Virus record (IMG/VR): IMGVR_UViG_3300047510_001256
Span: 80,688 to 144,687 of that record
DNA: 64,000 bases
Direction: 5' to 3' (one strand)
From: a virus
The translations under genes were made by a program, and so were the position numbers. Numbering within the stretch: the stretch's first letter is position 1; each line of letters begins with the position of its first letter. Under the pieces are notes generated by a model. It was not told the DNA's origin. It worked only from the letters and a program-made list of their open reading frames with translations, and made no database searches. Positions 2,209 through 52,551 of this stretch are shown one piece after another.

Positions 2209-5200
2209 TCACTGTTCCTCCCAAGTAATGCTGGCGAGTATGTTCCCGCGAGCTGCGTAATTAGTTCCCTGTAAGTATGTAGACTTGGAAGAAGCACAGA
2301 TATATAATGTCTCCTGAACATCGGTTAATGGGAAAGAAAGATAATCTTTATTGTAATCGAAGTATGGAGAAAGTTGATATTCTTCTCCAGAATTTGGAGA
2401 GAAAATAGTGGTTATAGTAGTTCCAGTTCCTGGAATTGGACTTCTTTGTTCAGTATCTGTTTCGATAGCAGACAATCTTGCCAATGTAGAGGTTGGGAAT
2501 GGTTGAGTCACACCACTCAAATCAGGATTTACTGGAGCTCCATTATCACCAGATGGTCCTCCCCATCTTCCCGCAATTAAGAATTTTCCTCTGATGATAA
2601 TCTCATCAATTGTTACTTCATATGCAGAAAAATAATACTTACCAGTATCTGAAGATCTATCCAAAATTCCTAGTGTAGTGAATGCCTGACCAGAAGTATC
2701 TCCTAGAACAGTATATCTAAACCATCCATATACTCTTTGTCCAGGTTGTAAATAATCTCCACCAGTAACTTGAATGCTTGCATCAGGAAGAAGAATTCTT
2801 TTACCTCTCTTTCCAATATTAATACCATTACTAGCACTAACTGCAAAACTACTTCCAACTCCAGGATTATCAAATGTCTGGAACGCAGGAGTTTTAATTA
2901 ATTCAACAGCTAAAGACTCAGAATCAGATGTAACACCAGTAGCGAGACGAGTTGGATAAATTTGAACTCTATTTCTCACGCCATTAATTTCAGTTCTGCA
3001 CTTAATTCCAACTAGTGGTTGAGGTCTTCTAACAACAAGACTGATACTGCCAGAAGTTGCATTGATAGTCCTAGTCAAATAAAGTTTTTTATTTACTGGA
3101 TCCACAAACGATACTCTAACATCTTGATCTGTTGGATTTGTGGTGATGACTTTTGCATTCATATAATAATCACTAATTGGAGGTCTGTTGGCAGAAGAAC
3201 CATTTCCAAAAAATTCAGTAGCACTTCCGTTAAATTGTAAATAAGGAGCATTTACATATCCAGATCCAGGAGTATTATCCTGACCATTCCCTGCAAATGT
3301 ATGCATTGCCCCTGCACCACTATGATTAATCTCATCGAATACGTATCTAGATCCGCCAATCTCCTTAAGAGTTTCCGAAGCATATGAGAATAGTCTTACA
3401 GTTCCTCTATCTCCACCATCAATATAGTATGAAGCACCATACTTGGTTAACTGCTCTGATGTAGATCCATACCCAGACTCACTATTAAGTCTACGATCTG
3501 CATTTAAATATCCATAAGCATTCTCATTGCCGCCTCCGTAACACATATATGTGATTGGAAGAGTAGCGTTACCAAGTGAAGCAACCTTCAACTGGTTAGA
3601 TGCTCTAAGGTGATGAACTCTCACCCATCTTGCTTCATTATTTTCTACTGGAACATAGGCTAAGAATGTTGCACCAACAGCACCATACCAGGAGAATTCA
3701 ATCTTATACATGGTTACTTTTGTTGGATCTAATTCCCAAATACTATTATAAGTTATTTGTTCATTTGTTGTTGGATCTAATACATCAGATCCAGCTTTAT
3801 TTGATAGAACATTATCACTGTAAACGACTTTAGTTGTTGTTCCGTTTAATTTTTCCTGACTCATTCTGGAGCGAGGAACTCTATACTCATAAACTTTATA
3901 ATACTTAGGATCCACATTGAACCAAACCCAGTTCTTGTAAAGTCTCTTATTTACATAATTAATTTGTCCTTTAATATCGTCAGTATTATTGAAAACAGAA
4001 TCTATGTATCCAACAGAATTTGTTGCTGCTGACTGAGCAGGAGGATAAACGTATGGGAAAGCACCATCCACATATTGTTCTGGGAATCCTTCCTGTCCTG
4101 GTCTAGTTTCATCACTATATTGACGACCAGCATAGGTTCTTTCATCAGATGGAAGAACAAATACGGTTGGAGTTCTTAATGATAATCCAAGATTTACTAT
4201 CGTAGAATTCTCTCCAGATTCAGAACCAATCGCAGTTCCTAAAGAAACATCAGAACCATTCTGTCTAACTGCATCAAGATCAAAAACTTCAATATCTCCA
4301 TATGCTTTCGTGGAATCACTTGCCCATGGATTTGTTGTGTTTCCTGATCCATAAATCTCTTCATTTCCTGGATATCTAGAAAATCTTATATACTGATAAA
4401 TGTTTTGTGATCCACTTACTGTCTCAACTCTTTGCTTTATGTCAAGTTGTCCAGTTGTGAATTCAGAAACATACCAAATACTGCCATCTTTAACAAGAGC
4501 AGAGGATCCAGTATCTCTCAAATCTACATTAACTCCATTTGTTTCAAAAGTAAATCCCTGACCAATTTGTAATAACTCTGCTCCTGCAGGAACTTTTACT
4601 TTTAAATATTTGGATGTATTGCCATCAATAAGATTGACAATTTCATAGTTAACTCTTGCTTTTAATAAAGAAGGATCAAATGCTGCTGCATGAACCATCA
4701 CTAATCCATCTCTAAGAAGAGTTAACTCTCCAGCCGAAGATCCAGTTGGACTTGTTGGGATAGAAGAATAGTTAAAATCTGTATCAAATTTACCGAGAGC
4801 TCTCAGTAAAATATTGTTTAAAAGATTGTCTACTGCGGAAGATGCTCCCGATTCTATAACACCAATACCAGTCGAAGGTATACCTAATGTAGTTCTAGAA
4901 ACATAAGTGACACTTCCTATATCACCACCACGACTGATTGTAAGTGGCGTAGTTGTTCTTGTTGTATTTGGAGCATTTCCAGCAAAAATATCCTTAATGG
5001 CATCAAGGATAACATCATATCTTGCTATCTCATCATTTGCTGTTTTAGATCCAATTCCACTTTGGACATATAATGAAACAGTTCCAGGAACATTTGTATT
5101 AAAAAATCTTAATGTATTATAAACAGTAGAAGCATTTCCACCATACTTCAAATCATGTAGAATACCTTCAATAATAAGTCCAGAGTCCTTTCTACATTTT

Positions 5201-13559: not shown

Positions 13560-13631
13560 TGGGCGATACTGGATTTGAACCAGTGACCATCTCCGTGTAA
13601 AGGAGGCACTCTACCGCTGAGTTAATCGCCC
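13560..13631 (-). tRNA. tRNA-Val (anticodon TAC)
   Basis: A 72-nt cloverleaf: acceptor GGGCGAT/ATCGCCC, D-arm AACTCAGCGGTAGAGT, anticodon stem CTCC/GGAG with loop TTTACAC (anticodon TAC), and T-arm ACTGGTTCAAATCCAGT. CCA is not encoded. It decodes GTA/GTG. Confidence 0.95.
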
Positions 13632-13674
13632 TAGAGGGTGGTGAGATTCTATCATACTCACAATCGGGAAGGTC

Positions 13675-13731
13675 TCACTGATAGTAAGTGTTTTCCCAAT
13701 ACTTTCGGACTCCTTGATAGTGGATTCTCAT
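13675..13731 (-). CDS. Possible 18-codon mini-ORF between tRNA-Arg and tRNA-Val
   Basis: In the 217-bp gap between the two tRNAs the only open frame with a ribosome-binding site (AGAGG 2 bp before ATG) encodes MRIHYQGVRKYWENTYYQ. It is basic and aromatic. It may be a real micropeptide or chance. Apart from a hairpin at 13824-13845 nothing else is seen in this gap. Confidence 0.3.
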   Translation of the reverse strand: MRIHYQGVRKYWENTYYQ

Positions 13732-13823
13732 ACCTCTAGTCTCCTAGTCGTATGGCGGGTATCACCCCTGTCCTAATCTACATTACCCAGTGCTTGACCA
13801 CATAGGTTATTCTGTCACACCCA

Positions 13824-13845
13824 GGAGAAACCCGTCAGTTTCTCC
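13824..13845 (-). other. 8-bp hairpin just after tRNA-Arg
   Basis: GGAGAAAC-TGACGG-GTTTCTCC on the minus strand, starting 4 bp after the tRNA-Arg 3' end. The stem is strong but has no T run. It is probably a processing or 3'-end stabilising structure rather than a complete terminator. Confidence 0.5.
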
Positions 13846-14041: not shown

Positions 14042-14127
14042 TAGAGACCTCCCTGTTTGTGCTTCAATGAGAGGCATGGGAGGGGCGAGACTGACGCGAG
14101 GTTTGGACCCCCGCTGCTCATGAAATA

Positions 14128-37207: not shown

Positions 37208-37236
37208 AGTATAGCAAAAAATATGGGGGGCGTCAA
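37208..37236 (-). promoter_or_regulatory. Sigma70-type promoter with -35 in a terminator loop
   Basis: TTGACG (37231-37236), 17 bp, TATACT (37208-37213). The bases TTGAC are exactly the loop of the hsp20 terminator hairpin. The spacer consists of the 3' stem arm plus the T run. It drives the Sm-like genes and probably gp43 onwards. Confidence 0.75.
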
Positions 37237-47997: not shown

Positions 47998-49040
47998 TAT
48001 ACTAACTCAAGACTTTCAATATATAGGTTTCGCATGAGATTCTTAAGGTTTGATTTGTCTACGGACATTTCTACTTCATCAATATATTCATTGAGAAGAG
48101 TGACTGTATCTTTGACTTCAAGATCGGGATCATCAACTAGATCATTTTCAACTAATGTTTCGAGAATCTTAACATCGTGAGCACCTGCCTTGTAGAGATC
48201 ATCAACTAATTTTTCAAAAGCATAATAGTCTTGCTTTTGCTCAACGATGATCTTTACAAAACACTTGGAGTAATCAGTTGCTGTGTATTCAAACTCACCC
48301 TTACTATCGTTGTAGTAAATCTTCTTGAAGATCTTGAAAGGATTCTTGTGGAATGTCAGCTTCTGAACATCAGGTTCAAAGGTATGAAATCCTCTAGTAT
48401 CATCACAATCATTCCAGAACATTTGATAGGGATTACCGAGATATGTGATGTTACCTTTGGTGCTCCTGTGGTGAAAGTGACCAGAGAAAACCCTCTCAAA
48501 CTTAGAGAACATTTTTGGATCCATACCATGATCCATTGTCATACCAGGAGTCACTTCAAATCCATTGAGTTCAAGATGACCCATCGCAATTTTAGCAGGA
48601 GTCTGTTCAATAAACTCTTTGGTCTGTTCTAGATTACCAGAGTTAATCCAGGGAATCAGAGCAATCTTACTACCGCCAAGATCAATTGTAGTTGCTTGTC
48701 CGTAGATGTGTATATTATTGTATTCAGAAAGAAGAAGATCTGGTGAGTTAATGTCGTTGGTATTTTTATAGTAAGTATCGTGATTACCAAGAATCATGTG
48801 AACTTCAACATTCATTTTCTGAAGAGTATCAAAATATGAATGGCGAATACGCTGCCATACATTAAAGTCAATACTCTTTCTGTTGTCAAAGGTATCACCA
48901 AGATCAATAACATGTTTGATCTTATTTTTAATCAAGTATGGAAAGAATACTTCCTGATAGAAACTATTAAAGTATTCCCAGAACTGATTAGAACCTTTTC
49001 GTCCGTCTAAATGTTGATCTGTAATGAGAGCAATTTTCAT
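47997..49040 (-). CDS. 47: Recombination nuclease subunit gp47, SbcD/Mre11-like (347 aa)
   Basis: Calcineurin-like phosphoesterase motifs: LITDQHLDGRK (DxH), VIDLGDTFDNRKS (GD), MILGNHDTYY (GNHD), MGHLELNGF and FSGHFHHRS (GHxH). The active site is complete. It partners gp46 in end resection. The start overlaps gp55 by 4 bp, so both follow the gp55 promoter. Confidence 0.95.
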   Translation of the reverse strand: MKIALITDQHLDGRKGSNQFWEYFNSFYQEVFFPYLIKNKIKHVIDLGDTFDNRKSIDFNVWQRIRHSYFDTLQKMNVEVHMILGNHDTYYKNTNDINSPDLLLSEYNNIHIYGQATTIDLGGSKIALIPWINSGNLEQTKEFIEQTPAKIAMGHLELNGFEVTPGMTMDHGMDPKMFSKFERVFSGHFHHRSTKGNITYLGNPYQMFWNDCDDTRGFHTFEPDVQKLTFHKNPFKIFKKIYYNDSKGEFEYTATDYSKCFVKIIVEQKQDYYAFEKLVDDLYKAGAHDVKILETLVENDLVDDPDLEVKDTVTLLNEYIDEVEMSVDKSNLKNLMRNLYIESLELV

Positions 49041-49534
49041 CGGTTTTCCATTCTAACTTCAATGTTTTCTTTAATAGATGTCATGTCAGAATAACTTTGA
49101 TTCATACCTGCCATGTCACCATCAAACTTATCAGTATACATCAGGTGATCAAAACCTGTCTTCTCAACAATCTTTGCCTTAATATCTAATTGCTTTTTCT
49201 CTTTTTGAATACGCCGCAGAAAAGCATACCAGATAATTTGTGTGAAGTAGGCAAATGGATTCTTTGATTTTTCTGGATTAAAGTTATCAATATACTGGAC
49301 ACAATTTTCTATACCATCAGAAATCATTTCTTCCCTGAACATGTAGTTCACGAAGTTTGGTTTATAGGAAAGGTGTGTAGCAATCTTGAGAAAGCATTCT
49401 CCAATGTAATTAGGAATACGCGGTTTTGGTTTACCAGTTTCAATTGCCTGATTAACTTTTGTTTTGTAAAGAATTAATGCTTCTAAAAATTCTTTATTAT
49501 TAACGTAGTATTCTTTGCTTTTTGTTTTGGACAT
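49037..49534 (-). CDS. 55: Late-transcription sigma factor gp55 (165 aa)
   Basis: MSKTKSKEYYVNNKEFLEAL, PRIPNYIGECFLKIATHLSY, MISDGIENCVQYIDNFNPEK and NPFAYFTQIIWYAFLRRIQK contain the sigma region-2-like helices of T4 gp55. It directs host RNA polymerase to TATAAATA promoters, many of which are present in this window. ATG 49534 is chosen because the frame further upstream runs through the sigma70 promoter 49566-49594. Confidence 0.93.
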   Translation of the reverse strand: MSKTKSKEYYVNNKEFLEALILYKTKVNQAIETGKPKPRIPNYIGECFLKIATHLSYKPNFVNYMFREEMISDGIENCVQYIDNFNPEKSKNPFAYFTQIIWYAFLRRIQKEKKQLDIKAKIVEKTGFDHLMYTDKFDGDMAGMNQSYSDMTSIKENIEVRMENR

Positions 49535-49565: not shown

Positions 49566-49594
49566 ATCATAACAGATGCTGGGGATCCTGTCAA
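49566..49594 (-). promoter_or_regulatory. Sigma70-type promoter for gp55-gp47
   Basis: TTGACA (49589-49594), 17 bp, TATGAT (49566-49571), 31 bp before the gp55 start. Its -35 is one half of the palindrome TGTCAAG-GGGG-CTTGACA (49589-49606). Confidence 0.8.
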
Positions 49595-49600
49595 GGGGGC

Positions 49601-49629
49601 TTGACAAACCTCAGAAACTAACCTAGAAT
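49601..49629 (+). promoter_or_regulatory. Plus-strand sigma70-type promoter, divergent from gp55
   Basis: TTGACA (49601-49606), 17 bp, TAGAAT (49624-49629) on the plus strand. No plus-strand gene is downstream, so any transcript would be antisense to the 148-residue gene and uvsW. Confidence 0.5.
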
Positions 49630-49669
49630 AAGCTTGTCGGGAAAAGATAAGAGTATAGCTTATAGCTTG

Positions 49670-50116
49670 TTATGACTTCTTAAAGATCTCCTCTAGTTTC
49701 TTTTTAGTATCTTCTACTGAACCTAGATAACCTTTTTCCGATAGATCATTAATATTTTGTCTTGCTTTGGAGTCTGTATAAGATCCCATGTCAAGTTTAT
49801 CTTGTTTATGTTCTTTAGGATGTTTTGATTTTTGTTCAACAACATCTAGATAGAATTCTTTAATATTATCATCAAGTTCCGATAAAGTAATTATCTGATT
49901 CATTCTGATAATAAACATGGTCTCATATGTGGCATGGATCCATTCACGGAGAACGAATCCTTCCACACTTTGCTTGCCTTTCTTTTGATTCATTGTTTCC
50001 ACAATCATAGGATTCTCAACTAGGATTGAATCCTCATCAGGTAGGTAACAAATTTTTGCTACCAATTCTTCACCTGAACTTAACTTGATTGTGGAATAAA
50101 ATTCTTCTTCCATCAT
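49670..50116 (-). CDS. Sm-like conserved hypothetical protein (148 aa)
   Basis: EFYSTIKLSSGEELVAKICY, then SILVENPMIVETMNQ and YETMFIIRMNQIITLSELDD, follows the Sm-type barrel strand order (L-x-x-G-x-x-x-x-A-x-V ... NP). It is followed by a charged helical tail. The layout resembles the two Sm-like genes at 36.5-37.2 kb. It overlaps the uvsW stop. RNA or replisome binding is only a guess. Confidence 0.75.
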   Translation of the reverse strand: MMEEEFYSTIKLSSGEELVAKICYLPDEDSILVENPMIVETMNQKKGKQSVEGFVLREWIHATYETMFIIRMNQIITLSELDDNIKEFYLDVVEQKSKHPKEHKQDKLDMGSYTDSKARQNINDLSEKGYLGSVEDTKKKLEEIFKKS

Positions 50117-51579
50117 GTTAGGTTGACTTTGATAATTTCATAGTTAAAATTCTCCTCTTGATAGATCTTTAATCTTTCACGAAGATGACGAAGTGTATAA
50201 TTCTCTCTCCCTGACTCTGAAGAAATATTATCAGCAATGTCGTATAGTGTTGCTATTTCTTTGCCCTCTCCCTTTCTAAGAACTCTTCCAATACTTTGGA
50301 GATTCCTGACACGGGATTTAGAGGGGCTAGCAAAAATAATATTGTGAAGACGTTTAATGTTGATACCAGTGCTAAAAGTTCCGTAGGACGCAATAATAAT
50401 GGCATCATTTTCTTGTTCAGTAATTTGACGAACTAATTCACGATCTTCTGTATCTGTGGAACCATGGACAAAGAACACTTTGCGATCATGATCTACATTG
50501 CTATTTATGAGTTCATACAAAGGTTCCCCATGCTTCTCCACATAGTTGAAAAGCACTAGTGTGTTACCTTCTATATCCTTGACTAGGTTCTTGATCAGAT
50601 TGTTTCTCTTCTTGTTAGTAACAATAAATTCCATCTCTTCGTGGTAGTCTTCAAAGTATTGATACTCATGTTTACAGAGTAATACTTTAATTCTAAGATT
50701 GGATAGGTATCCTTTTTTGATCAGATCATCAGTTTTAGTTACCTTTTCACATGATCCGAACAATCCTTCCAGCACCCACTTGTGTGTCTTGCTACCATCA
50801 AGTGTTCCTGTGAATCCAAAACGATACTTCGCATTATGTAACTTAGTCATCAGACCAGTCAGTGATTTTGCTTTGAATAGATGTGCCTCGTCTCCAATGA
50901 CACAATCAATGTCATCAAAATATAGTTTGGGGAACTTGTAAATGGATTGCCAAGTAGAGATAATGATTTGTTTGTCAGTGTTCTTATCTTTACCTGAATA
51001 AATTTTATGCATGTAATGATCTGCCTTCCAACCATACTCATTGAAGTCCTTCACCATCTGTTCTACAAGTGAAGTGGTTGGAACAATAATTAAAATTTTA
51101 TTATTTCTTGCGTGATAGTATCTAACAAGAGAATAAATCATTAAAGATTTACCAGATCCTGTAGGTGACAGAAACAATCCTCTGTTGTTTTTGATTGCTC
51201 TGTATACAGTTTCGTATTGATAATCTCTTGGTTTGACTGAGGAGATTTTATCCATGAAACCCTTCACTGCTGGAGGGGTCACAAAATCATTATCCTCTAT
51301 GACATCACCATAATATTTGTTTGGTAGATACTCAATCTTGTATGCTTTCTGCTGAGCCCATTCTTGTAACTGATTGAGTAGACCACAATAGATCTCCCCC
51401 GTTCCTGGGGAGTATAAACGAATCGTTCCATCCCAGTATTTGTATCTGGGATTTCTTTTTAGGAATTTTGCTTCAGGAACTTCAAACGTAAAGTAGTCTG
51501 AGAGTTCCTGATGGACATGAAGATCACCTTTGATTTGAAAGTAAACTTCGTTCTTCTTCTGAATGGTGATTAGTGTCAT
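50113..51579 (-). CDS. uvsW: RNA-DNA and DNA helicase UvsW (488 aa)
   Basis: Superfamily 2 helicase: motif I FLSPTGSGKSLMIYSL (about residue 140), Ia IIVPTTSLVEQM, II CVIGDEAHLFKA, III FGFTGTLDGSKT, V IASYGTFSTGINI and VI LQSIGRVLRKGEG. UvsW unwinds R-loops and drives branch migration, shifting replication from origin-dependent to recombination-dependent mode. It begins at the uvsY stop codon. Confidence 0.95.
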   Translation of the reverse strand: MTLITIQKKNEVYFQIKGDLHVHQELSDYFTFEVPEAKFLKRNPRYKYWDGTIRLYSPGTGEIYCGLLNQLQEWAQQKAYKIEYLPNKYYGDVIEDNDFVTPPAVKGFMDKISSVKPRDYQYETVYRAIKNNRGLFLSPTGSGKSLMIYSLVRYYHARNNKILIIVPTTSLVEQMVKDFNEYGWKADHYMHKIYSGKDKNTDKQIIISTWQSIYKFPKLYFDDIDCVIGDEAHLFKAKSLTGLMTKLHNAKYRFGFTGTLDGSKTHKWVLEGLFGSCEKVTKTDDLIKKGYLSNLRIKVLLCKHEYQYFEDYHEEMEFIVTNKKRNNLIKNLVKDIEGNTLVLFNYVEKHGEPLYELINSNVDHDRKVFFVHGSTDTEDRELVRQITEQENDAIIIASYGTFSTGINIKRLHNIIFASPSKSRVRNLQSIGRVLRKGEGKEIATLYDIADNISSESGRENYTLRHLRERLKIYQEENFNYEIIKVNLT

Positions 51580-52052
51580 TACAATCCATTAGTAAATTTC
51601 TCCCATTCAATAGCGTTCTTAATAAGATAATTTCTCTGGTTAATCATCTTCATGACGTTATCCAGATAATTGAGCATGACTTCAATAAGTTTTACCTTAC
51701 CTTCTAGGTTAAGAATATCTTCGTCTGAATCCAAATAAACACGCATTTTTTCTGAAGTCTTAATGCTGGAACCAAATGGTTTCTCGGCATATACTTTTGC
51801 GTCTGCTTCACCTCCGTAGTATTCTCTTTTGTCTTTAATTAATTTTCGGATTTCAAACTCTAGCGATACCTTCAACAACGAAAGATCGCTATGATGGTTT
51901 AAGTATTTATTGTGCTGGTAAGGAGTCTCTAAAGATAACTTGCTGAGATTCTCTGTGTATTCTTTGTTCTTAACATCAAAGTCAATTTGACTATCTTGAT
52001 TCCATTCCTCTTTAATTTTATCAAATAATTTAATCAGTTTATCCAGGTTCAT
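51579..52052 (-). CDS. uvsY: Recombination mediator UvsY (157 aa)
   Basis: MNLDKLIKLFDKIKEEWNQD, then YQHNKYLNHHSDLSLLKVSL and IRKLIKDKREYYGGEADAKV, matches T4-like UvsY (helical, basic, YY-G segment). It loads UvsX onto gp32-coated single strands. ATG 52052 is preferred over a GTG at 52073; both overlap the end of the gp3-like gene. It is followed by uvsW as in T4. Confidence 0.9.
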   Translation of the reverse strand: MNLDKLIKLFDKIKEEWNQDSQIDFDVKNKEYTENLSKLSLETPYQHNKYLNHHSDLSLLKVSLEFEIRKLIKDKREYYGGEADAKVYAEKPFGSSIKTSEKMRVYLDSDEDILNLEGKVKLIEVMLNYLDNVMKMINQRNYLIKNAIEWEKFTNGL

Positions 52053-52551
52053 AGACTTTAAATCGCTTATCACGGAAACTCATGGTAGCATACTTGAACG
52101 ATGCCTGTGCTGTAATCACTTCGTTCTCTCCCACTGTAGCATCAAAGTTAATTTGAGACAAGCTGTATGGGAACAGATATTGGAAGTCTGCTATTAAATT
52201 TGGATTTAAATTTGACGTATGAATAATTAATCTTGCTGAAGATAATTTCAATGGTGCCGTATCTTCAGACTGACCATTGACACGAATCCAATTAAAAATC
52301 TCAGCATAATTTTCCATGTCTTCATCAATAATAAAATTGACTTGAAGATCTCCATACGATACTCCACCACCACCAATGATAGGGAATGATCTCCACATGG
52401 TAGGAACCTCAGTTACAGGAACTGAGATATCAGGAAAGTTAACAGATTGACAAAAGAAATCAACACCAGGAAATATCTCTAGTTCTAATTGAAATCCTAT
52501 TGGCGTTAAAAAATTTCTATTTTTAGGTTGTGTTTCCGCCCAATTACTCAT
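52039..52551 (-). CDS. 3: Probable tail completion / sheath-terminator protein gp3 (170 aa)
   Basis: The sequence NFLTPIGFQLELEIFPGVDF, CQSVNFPDISVPVTEVP and GGVSYGDLQVNFIIDEDMEN is beta-rich and resembles tube-like tail proteins. Length (170 against 176 in T4) and position between gp23 and uvsY, where cyanophages encode gp3, support tail completion and sheath stabilisation. A gp19-like tube paralogue is the alternative. Its start lies within the end of the preceding 50-residue gene. Confidence 0.7.
   Translation of the reverse strand: MSNWAETQPKNRNFLTPIGFQLELEIFPGVDFFCQSVNFPDISVPVTEVPTMWRSFPIIGGGGVSYGDLQVNFIIDEDMENYAEIFNWIRVNGQSEDTAPLKLSSARLIIHTSNLNPNLIADFQYLFPYSLSQINFDATVGENEVITAQASFKYATMSFRDKRFKVYEPG

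Follow-up and report, generated by a model that had tools for sequence, protein, structure and literature searches.

Gene organization at the gp55 locus

The window, by which we mean the whole 64,000-nucleotide stretch of DNA that was analysed, is part of a 144.7-kb T4-like virus record. The genes around the site are all encoded on the minus strand: tail tube, uvsY, uvsW, the Sm-like gene GC139 (148 aa), gp55, gp47, a gene for a DUF3110 protein and gp46, in that order. The site itself is the junction of a uvsY-uvsW-Sm-like operon with a gp55-gp47-gp46 operon. The genes and promoter elements are as follows.

49037..49534, minus strand: gp55, late sigma factor (PHROG 234, E 2.7e-67; ATG at 49534)
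49566..49571, minus strand: -10 box TATGAT of the gp55 promoter (predicted start ~49559)
49589..49594, minus strand: -35 box TTGACA of the gp55 promoter (11/12 together with its -10 box)
49589..49606, no strand: palindrome TGTCAAGGGGGCTTGACA (arms TGTCAAG and CTTGACA around GGGG) with both -35 boxes
49601..49606, plus strand: -35 box TTGACA of the antisense promoter (invariant in aligned relatives)
49624..49629, plus strand: -10 box TAGAAT of the antisense promoter (17 nt from the -35 box)
49630..49653, plus strand: predicted start region of the antisense RNA (TGT at 49635-49637, with G49636 as the putative +1)
49670..50116, minus strand: T4-GC139, 148-aa Sm-like protein (Pfam PF16243, Sm_like, E 1.1e-9; PHROG 471, E 1.4e-37)
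50113..51579, minus strand: uvsW helicase (Pfam UvsW_N and helicase domains)
51579..52073, minus strand: uvsY (Pfam UvsY, E 4.3e-40)

GC139 carries the label 'methylamine utilization' in public records. Between 49010 and 50296 there is no plus-strand ORF of at least 40 aa, which speaks against a plus transcript serving as mRNA. The 49-50 kb interval has no Rfam match at the gathering score. Elsewhere in the window, an abiF sRNA match above the gathering score (14047-14083, minus strand, 45.1 bits) adjoins tRNA genes, and a manA cis-regulatory RNA (13631-13845, minus strand, 94.9 bits) lies directly between tRNA genes. The abiF RNA was earlier reported from cyanophage S-CREM1 (PMC9964418).

Two divergent promoters at one palindrome

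The left arm of the palindrome is the -35 box of a minus-strand promoter and the right arm that of a plus-strand promoter. Both promoters match the consensus at 11 of 12 positions, and they are the top two of 26 promoter-like sites between 47000 and 52500. A preliminary description of this DNA had the palindrome supplying -35 boxes to both strands at ideal spacing, and this is confirmed: TTGACA is found at 49594-49589 (minus) and 49601-49606 (plus), each 17 nt from its -10 box. The minus-strand TTGACA-17-TATGAT was correctly described as leading into gp55, the ATG of which lies downstream, ~25 nt below the predicted transcription start and in line with the starts in relatives. The plus-strand promoter has sigma-70/SigA-type elements (-35 TTGACA, -10 TANNNT, spacer 16-18 nt). 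Its assignment as antisense to uvsW stands for the direction but not for the order of targets, the first opposed gene being GC139 and uvsW the second, both on the minus strand. We refer to it as the antisense promoter.

By simple arithmetic, the 14 specified bases of the palindrome would be expected ~2e-4 times in 64 kb, against the one exact occurrence. The palindrome is not a genome-wide repeat, with a single exact copy in 144.7 kb, nor is it an intrinsic terminator: it has no T-run, and a terminator scan found none. Another -35 box beside a C-run occurs in a promoter-like site at 37208-37236 (minus strand; TTGACGCCCCCC...TATACT), ahead of a 127-aa ORF.

Promoters of this strength are seldom directed against the genes. 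In the window, a perfect TTGACA-17-TANNNT occurs once on the plus strand, as the antisense promoter, versus nine times on the minus (gene) strand. In whole genomes, perfect TTGACA-17-TANNAT likewise occurs often on the gene strand but rarely against the genes. Twelve genomes carry the perfect motif at this site: our own record, S-PM2, Syn1, S-RSM4, P-SSM2, HTVC008M, S-SCSM1, AG-345-L05, Syn9, S-CAM1, ACG-2014d and S-CAM8. In 10 of the 12 it is the only such match against the genes; the exceptions are S-PM2, with one other match, and HTVC008M, with two.

Conservation of the antisense promoter

Among 2.9 million IMG/VR contigs, 46 contain the exact 18-mer, and 45 of these have it between GC139 and gp55 in constant orientation. 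The sole contig with the palindrome outside a gp55 region (L109:7776-7793) is GC-rich DNA, where the match is probably due to chance.

We gathered 80 gp55 loci from IMG/VR together with several cultured phages, yielding 67 non-redundant upstream regions. The preliminary description had named loss of the plus-strand -10 box in close relatives as evidence against its proposal. The box is not lost: the best antisense promoter reaches at least 10/12 in 67 of 67 regions, versus 4.6% of dinucleotide shuffles, with two regions (L066 and L076) reaching this score only through a weaker match elsewhere in the region. A strict TTGAC[AG]-17-TANNNT is present at the homologous place in 63 of the 67, and the sense (gp55) promoter scores at least 10/12 in 63 of 67. 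When the relatives are aligned, no letters of the region are better conserved than those of the antisense -35 and -10 boxes. All 238 loci having GC139 or uvsW directly upstream of gp55 carry the antisense promoter at 10/12 or better, a redundant set whose count is not one of independent events.

Among cultured phages, the antisense promoter is found at the same place in Syn9, S-CAM1, S-CAM8, ACG-2014d and the Pelagibacter phage HTVC008M. It is weakened in P-SSM4 (TACACT) and ACG-2014f (TTGCCA), and Sinorhizobium phage phiN3 has it with a 16-nt spacer. We also collected 80 loci of distant phages through their uvsW, 50-96% identical to the query. Among the 67 with gp55 close downstream, the antisense promoter scores at least 10/12 in 49 and at least 11/12 in 38, where single-base shuffles give chance levels of ~22% and ~3%, respectively. 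Judged by this conservation, the antisense promoter is more than a chance match. Few elements of the region match its conservation across marine T4-like phages. It therefore very probably serves a function in its own right, either antisense control of uvsW or the initiation of DNA replication, and is no accident.

A covarying dyad at the predicted antisense start

Conservation extends beyond the -10 box, the first ~20 nt after it being conserved in Kyanoviridae. The triplet TG[TC] stands at the predicted antisense start in 94% of 54 non-redundant sequences, versus 6% at random places. It is flanked by dyad arms that vary among phages yet remain complementary. Perfect 4-bp stems form in 25% of sequences, versus 4.6% after right arms have been shuffled between sequences (z 7.7), a control that does not remove relatedness. 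The 13 distinct perfect 4-bp stems are very diverse and include ACCC/GGGT, CCGG/CCGG, AGGC/GCCT and GACT/AGTC. In distant phages the arm sequences diverge, and in the window the dyad is degenerate.

Two roles for the dyad were considered and rejected. In Kyanoviridae before redundancy removal, its non-Watson-Crick departures resembled plus-strand G-U pairs, as in an RNA hairpin. We withdrew this idea: in the non-redundant set, G-T and A-C departures match expectation, and a hairpin is also disfavoured because a standard start leaves the 5' arm of the dyad untranscribed. The second role, as an intrinsic terminator of the uvsW-GC139 mRNA, fails for lack of a GC-rich stem with a U-tract on the minus strand in 56 relatives.

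A second copy of the start module

The start region (49630..49653) is repeated near-identically ~91 kb away in the same genome. This second copy, outside the window (G000:C1:39228-39268, minus strand; TTGACAAACCTCAGAAAGTGACCTAGGAT + AAGCTTGTCCGGTAAAGATGAGA), is matched at C1:39240 by a sequence model of the module and drives a 52-aa ORF after a baseplate-lysozyme-like gene. According to the same model, a genome usually holds one further copy besides the gp55 site, on the gene strand. Further copies were located in S-PM2 (162737), Syn1 (16507), S-RSM4 (177768) and S-SCSM1 (208836, before nblA), whereas in Syn9, P-SSM4 and ACG-2014d the further copy lies inside runs of small hypothetical genes. 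Within a given genome, lineage-specific letters are common to both copies (own genome, S-PM2 and S-SCSM1), and the letters of the window's degenerate dyad recur in its second copy. Among 80 IMG/VR stretches with the Kyanoviridae form of the module, 75 have it at the gp55 site, 4 in the lysozyme/GC49 region and 1 at another place.

In one contig (L172:3900-4020), the module and a divergent partner promoter occur together in an unrelated neighbourhood of 2OG-oxygenase-like and tail genes. From this contig, the divergent promoter unit may be able to move between sites.

The antisense promoter belongs to the uvsW operon

The distance between the two -35 boxes varies among 64 relatives: they overlap fully as TTGTCAA in 27, are 0-6 nt apart in 22, 7-15 nt apart in 8 and more than 15 nt apart in 7, and all of these last seven keep both promoters. 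In HTVC008M the boxes are 57 nt apart. Because the boxes overlap in 27 of 64 relatives and lie within 6 nt in another 22, mutual exclusion of two polymerases is physically likely there. Competition at the palindrome would thus be common, yet it is not the conserved core of the arrangement.

Two relatives carry an inserted gene between GC139 and gp55, each named by eye from its translation: a methyltransferase-like gene in L066 (1878-2435) and a 2OG-oxygenase-like gene in L153 (5090-5633). Despite the insertion, the antisense promoter stays at the 3' end of GC139 (L066, 1801-1829; L153, ~5052-5084), while gp55 is preceded by separate elements, a complete promoter in L153 and a TATAAT in L066. 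Foreign genes at exactly this position also suggest an insertion hot spot. In the distant set, the predicted antisense start lies 8-50 nt (median 23) beyond the stop codon of the preceding gene. From these two insertions, the variable spacing and the position just past the stop codon, we assign the antisense promoter to the uvsW side: by position, it is a 3'-end feature of the uvsW operon and not an accessory of gp55.

Proposed antisense restraint of uvsW and GC139

The most likely reading, which we put forward tentatively, is that a host-type (SigA/sigma-70) antisense promoter restrains uvsW and GC139 and marks an operon border. The minus-strand promoter would drive gp55 and the genes after it, and the antisense RNA would start at ~49636 and read back through GC139 into uvsW. 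During the phase of unmodified host polymerase, antisense transcription would hold uvsW and GC139 low through collision, RNA pairing or both. It would also mark the border of two operons that have no intrinsic terminator between them, and would fade once gp55 takes over. We infer the firing of the promoter, its timing, the length of the RNA and its effect.

In T4, a late promoter drives expression of UvsW, which unwinds R-loops at origins (PMC3016281); early restraint of UvsW would therefore make sense. Late control of uvsW in the phage of the window is assumed here by analogy with T4; there is no exact TATAAATA late promoter near uvsW in the window. No sense-strand terminator-like site was found in the antisense-promoter stretch of 56 relatives. 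Nor did a simple pattern scan reveal a conserved terminator for the predicted antisense RNA, a feature that cis-antisense RNAs may have but do not need: among 56 loci it gave 4 terminator-like sites, scattered and without a common position. Interference alone would leave unexplained why TG[TC] and the covarying dyad are conserved at the predicted start, and also why a related copy lies on the gene strand elsewhere. Codon-level constraint is not marked in GC139 or uvsW; any increase is slight and confined to the extreme end of GC139.

Alternative functions

The chief rival, possible but rather unlikely in our estimate, is that transcription from the antisense promoter primes replication at an R-loop origin similar to T4 oriF. 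The RNA would anneal behind the polymerase and prime the leading strand, the displaced strand, bearing the dyad, would admit the primosome, and UvsW, encoded next door, would later clear the R-loop. The T4 oriF primer RNA, the uvsY transcript, starts downstream of uvsW and heads to its 3' end, on the same side and in the same direction as the antisense promoter of the window. Furthermore, T4 oriF and oriG need nothing beyond a promoter and an A+T-rich unwinding element; no product is required (PMC3016281). The predicted RNA of 116 non-redundant Kyanoviridae-type loci is G-rich (0.32) over its first 25 nt, and A+T content peaks (0.77) in the next bin, +25 to +50. The dyad at the predicted start, the usual single further copy of the module and the lack of marked codon-level constraint downstream are also consistent with an origin. 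In contrast, the A+T-rich step is missing in the distant set (0.70 vs ~0.68), a GC-skew turn was looked for at the site and not found, and the layout is not homologous to that of T4, where uvsY itself is the convergent gene. The broader proposal, that promoter and covarying dyad together constitute a transcription-primed R-loop origin across marine T4-like phages, beside the UvsW gene and usually with a second copy, is a shade less probable still.

Two further functions, about equal to each other in likelihood, seem improbable. The plus RNA could be short and regulate in trans, its 5' end being the same as that of the RNA made from the second copy. The ~20 nt after the -10 box, conserved in Kyanoviridae and closely alike between the two copies within a genome, would suit such a role. 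It has neither an Rfam match nor a conserved terminator, however, constraint is slight past ~50 nt, and the arm sequences diverge in distant phages. Alternatively, the dyad could be the operator of a phage regulator acting on both module copies as a small early regulon, with the antisense site as one target. Its centring on the predicted start and the lineage-specific letters common to both copies (own genome, S-PM2, S-SCSM1) would fit. Against an operator, the arms vary widely among lineages while symmetry is kept (13 stems), which looks more like structure than the site of one protein, and the dyad of the window is degenerate.

Very unlikely, and already weakened, is a switch in which polymerases compete for shared or abutting -35 elements and antisense firing tunes gp55, which was the purpose first proposed for the site: -35 boxes that overlap or are at most 6 nt apart in 49 of 64 relatives and an exact palindrome kept in 45 phage contigs favour it, but both promoters are retained at spacings from full overlap to 57 nt (over 15 nt in 7 of 64), and in L066 and L153 the antisense promoter remained with GC139 when the inserted gene displaced gp55. 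Control of gp55 by an antisense RNA, also suggested earlier, does not agree with the orientation, the predicted plus RNA facing GC139 and uvsW and not gp55.

Relation to known systems

The closest known system by kind is CfrI of cyanophage S-PM2, an RNA whose ~225 nt are antisense to both psbA and a homing endonuclease gene (PMC2984593, PMC5931967). Both are cis-antisense RNAs reading against genes in a marine T4-like phage; CfrI has been shown experimentally and lies at psbA, whereas the RNA of the window is a prediction for the uvsW-GC139/gp55 border. By place and direction, the nearest system is T4 oriF, with its promoter downstream of uvsW and its RNA directed toward the uvsW 3' end. The likeness is one of position and direction: in T4 a MotA middle promoter yields the RNA, which is the mRNA of uvsY (PMC3016281), whereas the promoter of the window is host-type and has no ORF. 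Cyanophages have been reported to be without motA (PMC2984593). The elements and spacing, TTGACA-17-TANNAT, are the same as in host sigma-70/SigA-type promoters of cyanophages (PMC2984593, PMC5931967), from which the antisense promoter differs in reading against the genes and in carrying the conserved TG[TC] and start dyad.

A near-unique anti-gene promoter has thus been kept in phages of cyanobacteria, Pelagibacter and possibly Sinorhizobium, the proteins of which have diverged to ~50% identity. Such conservation implies that annotation has overlooked a core function of marine T4-like phages, either in regulation or in replication. An early-gene regulatory element has reportedly been described for Syn9 by Doron et al. 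2016 (doi 10.1038/ismej.2015.210), and it is possibly the same as the antisense module. Among the papers compared, none describes the antisense promoter. Its novelty is provisional, and the Syn9 transcriptome of Doron et al. 2016 is the study most likely to have met the RNA or the motif. The site offers one defined position for testing a replication origin and the timing of UvsW and gp55 without MotA/AsiA, and in cultured phages its homologues map to 123705-123733 in Syn9 and 84446-84474 in S-PM2.
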